Made by a program: the position numbers and the translations under genes. Positions 40,402 through 44,681 of a DNA stretch of 64,000 nucleotides are shown here, in pieces. The stretch spans positions 1,047,501 through 1,111,500 of the forward strand of contig NZ_CP090975.1 in NCBI RefSeq assembly GCF_021513215.1, written 5' to 3'. Within the stretch, counting starts at the first letter, position 1. The number at the start of each line of letters is the position of its first letter. The notes beneath the pieces are model-generated. The model saw nothing but the letters and a program-made list of their open reading frames with translations, did not search any database and had not been told where the DNA came from. This DNA is from Suttonella sp. R2A3. Lineage in GTDB: Bacteria > Pseudomonadota > Gammaproteobacteria > Cardiobacteriales > Cardiobacteriaceae.

Positions 40402-40836
40402 TTATTGGCAAGTTTGTGGTAAACGCTGCGCTTCAATGCTACCACCATTACAACGCCAGGTAATTAATTGTCCATTACCTGCATTAGCTTCCGGCGTCAT
40501 CACTACCGTTTTCCCAGCATTCGCACCTGAATTAAATGCTACAGTCACCACACCACTGGTGCCCACACTAATATTACCTGGATCAAAATATTTACCATCG
40601 AGGGCTGTTGCACTACTGGCGAGCGCATGTCCAGCTGGTGGGAATACACGGTTCTCCCCCCAATACACGGCAATATCATTGCGCAAACCACTGGTAACGA
40701 TCAACGCTTCGCTAGCTTGTGCTCGCGCGACATAATCTTGATACGCCGGTAAGGCAATCGCCGCCAAGATACCGATAATTGCAATCACAATCATCAGTTC
40801 AATCAAGGTGAAGCCTTGTTCTTTCATGCATGACAT
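40402..40836 (-). CDS. type IV pilin (second copy)
   Basis: Prepilin of 144 aa. The leader MSCMKEQG is cut by PilD before Phe9; the mature helix [18 protein letters not shown] follows with Glu5. The C-terminal D-loop Cys pair is [15 protein letters not shown]. Start ATG 40836 has AAGGA seven bases before; an ATG three codons in is the other option. It is about 60% alike to the pilin upstream, most alike in the first 45 residues, so it arose by tandem duplication. The terminator before it suggests lower expression or a separate promoter. Confidence 0.92.
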
Positions 40837-40911: not shown

Positions 40912-41373
40912 TTATTGGCAGCTTGATGGTAAGCGTTTTGCATCGATACCATTTGTCGTGCCAGGAGCACACGTCCAACTAGCAATTTGTCCACCAGCAG
41001 CGTTCTGATTTGGTGTCAATGTCACAGTATTACCACTATTTGCACCATCATCAAAGGTAACTGTAATCATCCCAGTAGTCGCTGCTACTGTTACACCGCT
41101 AGCACCGAAATATTTACCCTCTAATTCAGCAGCAGCATCAAAAATAGGTTGACCTGAAACAAGATCTGATGCTGTTGGGAAGTTACCTTGATCCGCTAAA
41201 AATACACCAATATCAGATTGCAAACCGGTGGTTGCTTTCATCGCTTCAGATGCTTGTGCGCGAGCAATGTAGTCTTGATACGCTGGAAGCGCGATGGCTG
41301 CTAAAATACCAATGATCGCGATCACAATCATGAGTTCGATTAGGGTAAAACCCTTTTGCATTTGTTTTTTCAT
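40912..41373 (-). CDS. pilA: type IV pilin, probable major subunit (PilA)
   Basis: Prepilin of 153 aa. Leader MKKQMQKG, then mature [18 protein letters not shown] with Glu5 and [18 protein letters not shown]-loop Cys pair [18 protein letters not shown]. It is the promoter-proximal copy: a sigma-54-type promoter lies 64 bp upstream, AAGGAG precedes the ATG and a terminator follows, so it is the best candidate for the main fibre subunit. Assembly would use PilB/PilC/PilD at 18884-22657. Confidence 0.95.
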
Positions 41374-41436: not shown

Positions 41437-41453
41437 ATGCTTTGCATGTGCCA
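41437..41453 (-). promoter_or_regulatory. sigma-54 promoter of the pilin genes
   Basis: Minus strand TGGCACATGCAAAGCAT: perfect -24 element TGGCAC and GC at the -12 position with the exact sigma-54 spacing (consensus TGGCACG-N4-TTGCA); the two bases before GC are AA rather than TT. In other gammaproteobacteria pilA is driven by RpoN with PilR. pilSR are not in this window. Confidence 0.78.
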
Positions 41454-41597: not shown

Positions 41598-42851
41598 ATG
41601 ACCGCTTTTTACACTGGGGTGATTTGCTTATGCATCACCGCCTGCTTCGCCTACATCAATAAACGCTTTATCGGCTTGCCGACCACGATCGGGGTGATGT
41701 TCGTCGCCTTGCTCATCTCGCTGCTGTTGATTGGCTTGAACTCACTTGGCTTTGCTGAGCTGCTTGTTTATGAGCGTCGTCTGCTGGCGAATATTGATTT
41801 TGCCGATGTGCTAATGGATATCATGCTCTCGATGTTGCTTTTTGCTGCAGCGCTGCATGTAAAAGTCACCGACCTACGCGCGCACAAATGGCGGGTTGGC
41901 ATACTCGCCGTGTTCGGCACGTTACTCTCCACCGCGATCGTCGCTGGCCTCACCTATGCCCTGCTGCAATGGTTAGGCTTTGAGATTGCCTTTATTTGGT
42001 GCGTTTTATTCGGTGCGCTCATCTCACCCACTGACCCGATCGCCGTGATGGGGATTTTAAAATCCGCTGGTGCACCACAATCGGTCTCAACCGTGATCTC
42101 CGGCGAGTCGTTATTTAACGACGGGATCGGCGTGGTGCTTTTCGTCTTGCTATTAGAAATTCTACGCTTAGGCGAACTACCGAGTGTGTGGCAGGCGCTG
42201 GAATTATTCACGGTCGAAGCTGGCGGCGGTATGCTGTTTGGTTTTGCGCTTGGCTGGCTAGGATTTCGCCTAATGCGCAGCATCGATAGCTATCAAGAGG
42301 AAGTGTTGATCACCCTCGCCCTTGTACTCGGCGGCTATTCTTTAGCGTCTTACTGGCATCTCTCAGGCCCACTGGCCATGGTCATCTCAGGGTTGATGCT
42401 CGGCAACCACGGGCGCGAATATGCGATGAGCACGCAAACCCAGCAATACGTCGACCTATTCTGGGAATTGATCGATGAAATCTTAAACGCTTTACTGTTC
42501 GTATTGCTCGGTTTAGAAATCGTGATTTTGAGCGTCAACGGCAATATGTTACTCGCTGCCACCCTCGGCATTGGAATTGCACTATTCGCGCGCTTTATCG
42601 CCGTGAGCAGCGTGATGACCATTTTGCGGCGCGATATGGTCTTACCCGAGCGCTCGTGGCAGGTTTTAGTATGGGCCGGTCTGCGCGGCGGTATTTCTGT
42701 CGCTCTCGTGCTCTCGCTACCAGCAGGCGGCGAACGCGAACTCTTACTCACCATGACCTACGCAATTGTGCTCTTTTCGATCATCGTGCAAGGCCTCACC
42801 ATCGGCCCGCTCGCCAAACGCTTATCTAATCCTGATCTTCCTGGCATGTAA
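41598..42851 (+). CDS. Na+/H+ antiporter of the CPA1 (NhaP-like) family
   Basis: Inner-membrane cation/proton antiporter of 417 aa with about 12 hydrophobic helices. Marks: LLFAAALHV, GALISPTDPIAVMGILKSAG (transport-site TDP), GESLFNDGIGVVLF (family ND motif) and WAGLRGGISVALVLSLP. It lacks the long C-terminal TrkA-type domain of larger NhaP proteins. Single gene, divergent from the pilin operon. Confidence 0.92.
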   Translation: MTAFYTGVICLCITACFAYINKRFIGLPTTIGVMFVALLISLLLIGLNSLGFAELLVYERRLLANIDFADVLMDIMLSMLLFAAALHVKVTDLRAHKWRVGILAVFGTLLSTAIVAGLTYALLQWLGFEIAFIWCVLFGALISPTDPIAVMGILKSAGAPQSVSTVISGESLFNDGIGVVLFVLLLEILRLGELPSVWQALELFTVEAGGGMLFGFALGWLGFRLMRSIDSYQEEVLITLALVLGGYSLASYWHLSGPLAMVISGLMLGNHGREYAMSTQTQQYVDLFWELIDEILNALLFVLLGLEIVILSVNGNMLLAATLGIGIALFARFIAVSSVMTILRRDMVLPERSWQVLVWAGLRGGISVALVLSLPAGGERELLLTMTYAIVLFSIIVQGLTIGPLAKRLSNPDLPGM

Positions 42852-43420
42852 GCCAACTAACCTTAGCGCTGCTCAGGCTGTCGTTCGGCCATTCTAGAGA
42901 ATGGTCTTGATAGCCTCGCTAAAGAACTGTACGAAAGATGAGTGACAAAAATGGTCAGGTTAGTTCAATCGATGCACGACAGGCAAATTTTATAGCTAAG
43001 ATGCTTTTTATTATTCGAGCAACATCTTACATCATAAAGGATTTTCCCCCTGATCACTCAGCCATATTCTTTATGAATTGAACGTATTGAAAAAGTGACA
43101 ATTTTTGGCAACCCCGGGTAAAGCATACTCAAGCGTGATTCACCTTGCGCCTAGACTCCTACGAAAGCTCGCTAAACAGGTGATATGTGGCAACAAGATT
43201 TAATGATGTTAGGCGAGATGATGCTTAATATTGCTCGATAACTGCCCATAATGAGTACACAGCGCACAAAATTTAACCCATTGACTACTCATATATAAAA
43301 TTATATAAATATATCAATTATTTCATTTGAATAAGTTTTCCCTATCCATCCCCAAATAAGTTAATTGATATCAGTAAAGTGTGTTTTATGAACTTTATTT
43401 AATTAAATTGATAGGTAGTT
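42852..43420. other. gene-free intergenic stretch upstream of the candidate small RNA
   Basis: No frame here looks coding. It contains a perfect 16-bp palindrome (42889-42904) and, from about 43265 to 43420, a markedly A/T-rich segment that includes TATCAATTATTTC at about 43312, one base off an IHF-type site. With the sigma-54 promoter directly downstream, this is a plausible place for a bent enhancer region; that role is inference. No activator site is recognised. Confidence 0.55.
42889..42904. repeat. perfect 16-bp palindrome
   Basis: CCATTCTAGAGAATGG, fully self-complementary, 38 bp after the antiporter stop. It has no T-tract, so it is not a normal terminator. It could be an operator or a chance palindrome. 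Confidence 0.6.
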
Positions 43421-43436
43421 TGGCATGCTCATTGCT
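43421..43436 (+). promoter_or_regulatory. sigma-54 promoter of the candidate small RNA
   Basis: TGGCATGCTCATTGCT fits the consensus TGGCACG-N4-TTGCW at all positions except C to T in the -24 box. The -24 GG and -12 GC are exactly spaced. Predicted start of transcription is near 43447. It agrees with the -12 element better than the pilin promoter does. Confidence 0.75.
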
Positions 43437-43446
43437 TACTATACTC

Positions 43447-43608
43447 CCGAGTTCTTTGTATCGTTTATGGACGAACGTCATTTGCACAATGGATTGAGCA
43501 AGATATGAAGGGTTCCGTGCGCAAGGATGCGCTCGTCTACCTTAAACCTTTCGGGGTTTAGCGCCAGAAAATCACTCAGGGCTGATTATGATTTTCTTGG
43601 CGTTTTTT
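43447..43608 (+). ncRNA. candidate sigma-54-dependent small RNA
   Basis: About 160 nt bounded by the sigma-54 promoter and a strong intrinsic terminator, inside an 800-bp gap without protein genes. Predicted stems: ATGGAC-gaac-GTCAT (43467-43481), GCGC-aaggat-GCGC (near 43519-43532, loop with AGGA), TAAACC-tttcgg-GGTTTA, and the terminator. Three GGA motifs are present, one in a hairpin loop, the style bound by CsrA/RsmA proteins. Two tiny frames (43467-43508 and 43505-43561) overlap as ATGA and could make it dual-function. It does not match 6S, tmRNA, RNase P or SRP RNA as I know them. GlmY/GlmZ, CrcZ and Qrr show that sigma-54-driven sRNAs exist. Direction is toward gshB. Confidence 0.6.
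43562..43608 (+). terminator. intrinsic terminator of the candidate small RNA
   Basis: CGCCA-GAAAATCA ... TGATTTTC-t-TGGCG followed by six T's on the plus strand: 13 paired bases with one bulge. The minus strand lacks a T-run, so it serves plus-strand transcription and not gshB. Confidence 0.88.
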
Positions 43609-43654
43609 ATCAGCTGGATTTACGTCCCCCTTTGAAACCCGACTCTCTAAATCC

Positions 43655-44602
43655 TCAATGAGTCTCGCCCAAATCCAATCCTTGCCAAAAGCGCTTAGCG
43701 ATCTCTTGACCAGTGTGGTTTTCGATCTCGCGCAGACACGTTGGGCTGGTCACATTCATTTCCGTGATAAACCCACCGATCACATCGAGGCCAACAAGGT
43801 ACAACCCTTGCTCTTTGATAATCGGGCGCACTTGTTCAACCAACCAATAATCCCGATCGCTGAGCGCCTGTACCACACCGCGTCCACCGGCCGCGAGATT
43901 GGCGCGGAACTCACCCTTAGCCGGCAGTCGCGCCAAACCATGGTCCACTGCCTCACCATTGATAATCAAAATACGCTTATCACCAGCGCTGACTTCCGAT
44001 AAATATTGCTGCACCATCAGCGTGGTTTCGCCATCTGGGTTGATTGCATCGAGGATTGCACTGAGGTTGGTATCTTCCTCGGCAAGACGGAATATTCCTG
44101 CGCCACCCATACCGTCCATTGGCTTGACCACCGCAGTGGTAAATTCGCGCACAAATTCGCGAATTTCACGACGCGATTTAGTCACCAACGTTGGCGGAGT
44201 AGCTTGCGGCAGACGGGTGATAACGAACTTTTCGTTGATGTTACGCAGCGCCTGCGGCGGATTCACCACCCGCACCCCATCGCGCACGAGGATATCGAGC
44301 ATATAGCTGTCGTAGATATAATCCATATTAAACGGCGGATCTTTGCGCTGCAGCACCACATCGACCTCGTTGAGCACGATCATTTCTTCGTTGCGTACGC
44401 GGTAATAATCATCAACATCATCGGTTAATACCACGCTTTGTACATACGCCTGTACTTCGCCATCACGCACCTGCCAATCGCGCTGACCAAAAATCATCAC
44501 TTGATGGCCCAATTCTTGTGCGGCAAGCATCAAAGCAAAGGTGGTGTCTTTATACGTTTTAATGTCGTCGATATCATCCATCAGAATGGCAATATCAGCC
44601 AT
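43655..44602 (-). CDS. gshB: glutathione synthetase
   Basis: ATP-grasp ligase that adds Gly to gamma-glutamylcysteine. It has 315 aa from ATG 44602, set by AGGAGG; an ATG two codons earlier is too close to that site. ADIAILMDDIDDI, VLQRKDPPFNMDYIY, VVKPMDGMGGAGIF, GDKRILIINGEAVDHGLAR and FITEMNVTSPTCLREIE are standard. Divergent from gshA, 79 bp between starts, so both steps of glutathione synthesis share one control region. Confidence 0.97.
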   Translation of the reverse strand: MADIAILMDDIDDIKTYKDTTFALMLAAQELGHQVMIFGQRDWQVRDGEVQAYVQSVVLTDDVDDYYRVRNEEMIVLNEVDVVLQRKDPPFNMDYIYDSYMLDILVRDGVRVVNPPQALRNINEKFVITRLPQATPPTLVTKSRREIREFVREFTTAVVKPMDGMGGAGIFRLAEEDTNLSAILDAINPDGETTLMVQQYLSEVSAGDKRILIINGEAVDHGLARLPAKGEFRANLAAGGRGVVQALSDRDYWLVEQVRPIIKEQGLYLVGLDVIGGFITEMNVTSPTCLREIENHTGQEIAKRFWQGLDLGETH

Positions 44603-44681
44603 GATCATTCCTCCTCAAGGCAAAAACGCATCATAACAGCAAAATGCGTTATGATGGCGGCATTTATCATTAGGACAATCC

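Follow-up and report, generated by a model that had tools for sequence, protein, structure and literature searches.

About 162 nucleotides on the plus strand of the Suttonella sp. R2A3 chromosome, preceded by a sigma-54 element and closed by an intrinsic terminator, probably constitute a gene for a sigma-54-dependent small RNA, as judged from sequence. It is a candidate, new as a sequence and ordinary as a kind of gene. The whole explanation proposed here, i.e., a stand-alone noncoding RNA gene of about 160 nt that depends on sigma-54 and whose product acts most likely by binding CsrA, is given an even chance. Established directly are the sequence elements, the occurrence in this genome of rpoN, csrA and the activator genes, and the rarity of the promoter pattern; from them we infer transcription, its start, CsrA binding and a regulatory role.

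Genomic locus and sigma-54 promoter element

The window, i.e., the whole stretch of DNA analysed, comprises 64,000 nucleotides and corresponds to bases 1047501–1111500 of the complete 1.99-Mb chromosome; the positions given below refer to it. The candidate lies in an 803-bp gap (42852–43654) that contains no open reading frame (ORF) of at least 60 amino acids on either strand, in agreement with an earlier note on this DNA, which had described an 800-bp gene-free gap. The gap is bordered on the left by a Na+/H+ antiporter gene (41598–42851, plus strand) and on the right by gshB (43655–44608, minus strand), beyond which lies gshA. The closest named relative found for GshB, the glutathione synthase, is that of Dichelobacter nodosus, with 68% identity. 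The Cardiobacteriaceae are the family that includes the agent of sheep foot rot and also agents of endocarditis. Two pilin genes are located farther upstream of the gap; these are tandem type IV pilin genes (40402–40836 and 40912–41373) with near-identical starts and an intrinsic terminator in between.

The −24/−12 element, TTGGCATGCTCATTGCT, is read directly at 43420–43436 on the plus strand. It has the form TTGGCATG-N4-TTGCT, in which the GG (43422–43423) and the GC (43434–43435) are separated by ten bases, as in the GG-N10-GC arrangement of sigma-54 promoters, and the flanks are near consensus; the single departure from TGGCACG-N4-TTGCW lies in the −24 block, where T replaces C. The earlier note had reported an element differing from the consensus mainly at one −24 base, a description confirmed by the direct reading and strengthened by genome-wide rarity. 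The pattern YTGGCAYGN4TTGCW has only this one exact match in the 1.99-Mb genome and its reversed control none, while across 12 genomes of the family ten exact matches were counted versus none for the reversed control. When one mismatch is allowed, the number of sites in this genome rises to 62. The search for sister genes covered about 80 one-mismatch sites from this genome and its congener in which GG and GC are kept; few of them lie outside ORFs, only the element at 43420 combines zero mismatches with the absence of an ORF and a strong terminator, and no sister RNA gene was found among them. The transcription start is predicted at about 43447, 12 nt past the −12 C.

Upstream of the element, the gap (42852–43419, plus strand) is AT-rich over its last 200 bases (26.5% GC). 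No significant IHF, PilR or NtrC site was found there; 59% of shuffled sequences also contain an IHF-like site, and an NtrC-like palindrome about 178 bases upstream of the promoter is not significant. Two GTGACAA motifs on the plus strand (42942 and 43095), from a total of six GTGACAA/TTGTCAC in the 64-kb window, are possible distant activator sites that are similar to motifs before pilE, although they do not reach significance.

All 12 genomes of the family encode RpoN, and this one also encodes activators of the kind that a sigma-54-dependent small RNA requires. Its NtrC scores above the NCBIfam cut-off and has an intact GAFTGA motif, which is likewise intact in a PilR-like activator encoded next to a histidine kinase gene and lost in an NtrX-like protein. 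Since these two activators, NtrC and the PilR-like protein, carry GAFTGA, either could drive the promoter. No GlrR or LuxO equivalog was found among the activators of this genome. Sigma-54-like sites outside ORFs are found in the family upstream of a pseudopilin, of autotransporter adhesins and of large adhesins, and the positions of such sites suggest that a surface-attachment programme (pilins, large adhesins) may be under sigma-54 control in this family. Near-consensus sites before very large adhesins or ESPR-type autotransporters were noted at loci L213, L212 and L233 (own genome), L093 (G001) and L057 (G011). Additionally, a weak sigma-54-like element, GTGGCACATGCAAAGCA, is located on the minus strand at 41453–41438, about 60 bases ahead of pilE, the first of the pilin genes; two GTGACA motifs that are possible PilR-like sites lie upstream of this element, at distances of 50 and 79 bases.

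Predicted RNA structure and the proposed CsrA connection

The candidate RNA is delimited by its predicted start and the end of the terminator (43447–43608, plus strand, about 162 nt). Its computed fold has a free energy of −49.1 kcal/mol (z = −2.07), and 7 of 200 shuffles fold equally well. Hairpin 1 (43462–43477, CGUUU-AUGGAC-GAACG) has an ANGGAN loop and is not stably formed; other folds compete with it, and the mean unpaired probability of its GGA is 0.31. The GGA motifs of hairpin 2 (43482–43501, UUGC-A-CAA-UGGA-UUG-A-GCAA) and hairpin 3 (43516–43535, CG-U-GCGC-AAGGAU-GCGC-U-CG) are located firmly in the loops, where their probability of being unpaired is 0.84 and 0.89, respectively, and are 34 nt apart. 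A short single-stranded CU-rich linker precedes hairpin 4 (43543–43560, AAACC..GGUUU), which contains no GGA.

The terminator (43561–43608) consists of a stem at 43561–43603 with 13 standard pairs, an outer G-U and one bulged T, followed by T6 up to 43608. It lies about 125 bases downstream of the promoter element in the same orientation and within the ORF-free gap, inside the 50–500 nt taken as the range for a sigma-54-dependent small RNA gene. A simple terminator scan did not return it, probably because the long interior loop and the bulge exceed the scan's loop limit of 3–8. The RNA of about 160 nt with several short hairpins, one of them with an AAGGAU loop (hairpin 3), and the terminator of 13 paired bases plus T6 had both been proposed earlier and are recovered here, the latter with the bulge and the outer G-U as refinements.

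All three GGA motifs of the RNA are in ANGGAN context (AUGGAC, AUGGAU and AAGGAU). At least three ANGGAN occurred in 146 of 20,000 dinucleotide shuffles (0.7%), and two ANGGAN closed by stems of four pairs or more in 4 of 20,000 (0.02%), values that are optimistic since the motif was chosen post hoc, after inspection of the sequence. An ANGGAN triple with stems of at least two pairs is found only once in the 128 kb of window strands, and two others are present in 1.5 Mb of control strands. In the computed fold, hairpins 2 and 3 provide two suitably spaced GGA in ANGGAN loops, an arrangement expected of RNAs of the CsrB/RsmZ type. Hairpin 3 shares its AAGGAU hexaloop with RsmZ hairpin 2, which has been crystallised with RsmN, a CsrA-family protein (PMC3791407). 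The CsrA consensus has been given as RUACARGGAUGU together with ANGGAN loops (PMC7652899), and the AAGGAU loop of hairpin 3 fits it. A canonical csrA (MLILTRR...VHREEVY) is present in the genome. Three ANGGAN hairpin-like motifs were also observed about 230–340 bases upstream of csrA itself (L152), near the 3' end of the preceding gene, which is read from the sequence as an aspartokinase gene; this cluster is one of the two in the control set.

The density of GGA, in contrast, is low, with 3 in 162 nt versus 22 in 369 nt for CsrB and 14 in 246 nt for CsrC, and is not clearly over chance. The CsrB and CsrC of E. coli scored poorly on the same strict hexaloop test, and E. coli GlmY contains no ANGGAN. 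The RNA does not match the CsrB, RsmY or RsmZ models of Rfam, and the genome yielded no match to CsrB. Activation by GacA/UvrY has no visible counterpart either: no clear UvrY/GacA was found in the genome, in which the best match to the UvrY model reaches 117.5 bits against a cut-off of 280 and lies beside a NarX-like kinase. By its GGA count the RNA is not of the CsrB type; its sequence would be compatible with binding of CsrA at low valency. The link to CsrA through GGA motifs suggested earlier is therefore upheld as regards motif and structure (all three GGA in ANGGAN, two firmly in loops, csrA in the genome) and weakened by a GGA density far below that of CsrB and CsrC.

In the proposed mechanism, sigma-54 polymerase would bind at 43420–43436, with either the PilR-like protein or NtrC, the enhancer-binding proteins that are intact here, as its activator; transcription would run from about 43447 to the end of the terminator at 43608. 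CsrA dimers would be bound by hairpins 2 and 3, whose ANGGAN motifs are well exposed, and more weakly by hairpin 1, and CsrA-controlled mRNAs would thereby be relieved while the sigma-54 programme is on. Titration of CsrA is the leading mechanism, albeit a tentative one. More doubtful still is the reading that, in a bacterium with CsrA but lacking any recognisable Gac/UvrY system and CsrB, a small RNA under sigma-54 control sets the activity of CsrA, such that a PilR-like/RpoN programme of type IV pili and adhesins would be coupled directly to the CsrA network.

Alternative readings and conservation

The main rival to CsrA binding is base-pairing, which is nearly as likely. The sigma-54-dependent RNA would pair with mRNAs, probably assisted by Hfq, through the CU-rich linker UCUACCUUAAACC (43532–43545), and the GGA loops would be incidental. 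The promoter and terminator evidence is identical for this reading, and a single-stranded linker complementary to the Shine-Dalgarno-like AAGG, together with a U6 tail, is typical of pairing RNAs; GlmZ and Qrr, which are also sigma-54 RNAs, are known to act by pairing. For several of the translation starts in the window, the best duplex is the one formed by the linker; however, no specific target is outstanding, and anti-Shine-Dalgarno complementarity is unspecific. The neighbouring genes rank only 17th to 56th of 60, so that the association with the pilus or glutathione genes next door, raised in the earlier note, gains no support from base-pairing; in the congener, moreover, the neighbours differ. 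Rather unlikely is a chance match to the −24/−12 pattern, in which case the RNA, if made, would have no function of its own and be either the tail of a longer transcript that terminates here or a remnant in decay. In favour of this, our own estimate from simple base frequencies gives an expectation of about 0.5 exact matches in 4 Mb of strands, conservation is wholly absent in the searches, and the gap may evolve fast, since gene order around it is not kept. Against chance stand the ten exact matches versus none of the control over 12 genomes and the correct placement and orientation of the sole genome-wide match ahead of a strong terminator in an ORF-free gap.

Two tiny ORFs lie inside the RNA at 43467–43561, and the transcript could be a short sigma-54 mRNA for micropeptides of 13 (ORF1, 43467–43508) and 18 amino acids (ORF2, 43505–43561, MKGSVRKDALVYLKPFGV). 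The two are neatly joined by an overlap of stop and start (ATGA), and ORF2 closes immediately ahead of the terminator, in agreement with such a role, but neither start has a good ribosome-binding site and ORFs so short are common by chance, which makes this reading very improbable. Least credible of all is a divergent member of the GlmY/GlmZ, Qrr or CrcZ families, which depend on sigma-54 and are comparable in length, given that no Rfam family was matched at E-values up to 10 except three sub-threshold, unrelated ones and that a GlrR or LuxO equivalog is absent among the activators.

At the Rfam gathering threshold no family matches the RNA, and the earlier impression that it belongs to no described family thus holds even at permissive E-values. 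A blastn search with the locus in 57 genomes, its own included, detected no homologue in the 56 relatives; at E-values up to 10 nothing related was found within the family, and the top matches examined were coding coincidences. A single-sequence covariance model built with the proposed hairpins identified no relative in the family genomes, its match at E = 0.78 being rejected as lying inside hisG, and no relative was found in the plasmids, phages and viral contigs searched. Because no homologue was detected in the 56 relatives, the structure has no covariation or conservation support, which is the candidate's chief weakness. The sole congener searched is already diverged (81% identity in GshB), and the gene order from GshB and the antiporter differs in it, each flanking gene having other neighbours there. 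Lack of conservation in close relatives had been named in advance as evidence against the candidate; this applies in part, in that no relative was detected and the comparison extended to one diverged congener. The RNA is so far an orphan candidate among the genomes searched.

Relation to known regulatory RNAs and meaning for the family

GlmY/GlmZ, CrcZ and Qrr are sigma-54-dependent small RNAs. The candidate shares with them a stand-alone sigma-54 promoter, a length within 100–400 nt and an intrinsic terminator; unlike them, it lacks an Rfam match, and its genome lacks GlrR or LuxO equivalogs, so that neither the Rfam match nor the GlrR regulator of GlmY/GlmZ is found. A locus in a relative (L065; G006:C24, promoter at 205) resembles it in having an exact sigma-54 element followed by 156 nt that are free of ORFs and end in a strong terminator; that locus has no ANGGAN and other neighbours. 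The RNA of that locus (205–387), which has no Rfam match, was rejected as a homologue, as its local alignment score was reached by 48% of shuffles.

With RsmY, RsmZ, CsrB and CsrC the candidate has in common serial ANGGAN-loop hairpins, the AAGGAU hexaloop of RsmZ hairpin 2, an intrinsic terminator and a csrA in the genome; it differs in its few GGA motifs and in having no sequence match. Moreover, the CsrA-titrating RNAs are activated by GacA/UvrY, while the candidate has a sigma-54 promoter. For Pseudomonas syringae, a machine-learning study predicted RNAs that regulate RsmA and have sigma-54-like (RpoN-like) sites, and it predicted such RNAs also in species lacking Gac orthologues (PMC5568370). 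As in the candidate, a sigma-54-like site precedes an RNA whose GGA motifs are unpaired; the predicted RNAs, however, occur in multiple copies and are conserved within their species, whereas the candidate is single and from another bacterium, and the two are likened by their proposed logic. No validated case of an RpoN-driven CsrA/RsmA-regulating RNA was found in the literature searched. The CsrA connection is a hypothesis, not a result, and its precedent is a prediction.

The literature searched contained no small RNA work on the Cardiobacteriaceae. If real, the candidate would provide a concrete sigma-54-dependent RNA in this family. If it binds CsrA, it would furthermore be evidence for the long-suggested idea that bacteria without GacA control CsrA by RNAs under other regulators, such as RpoN (PMC5568370).
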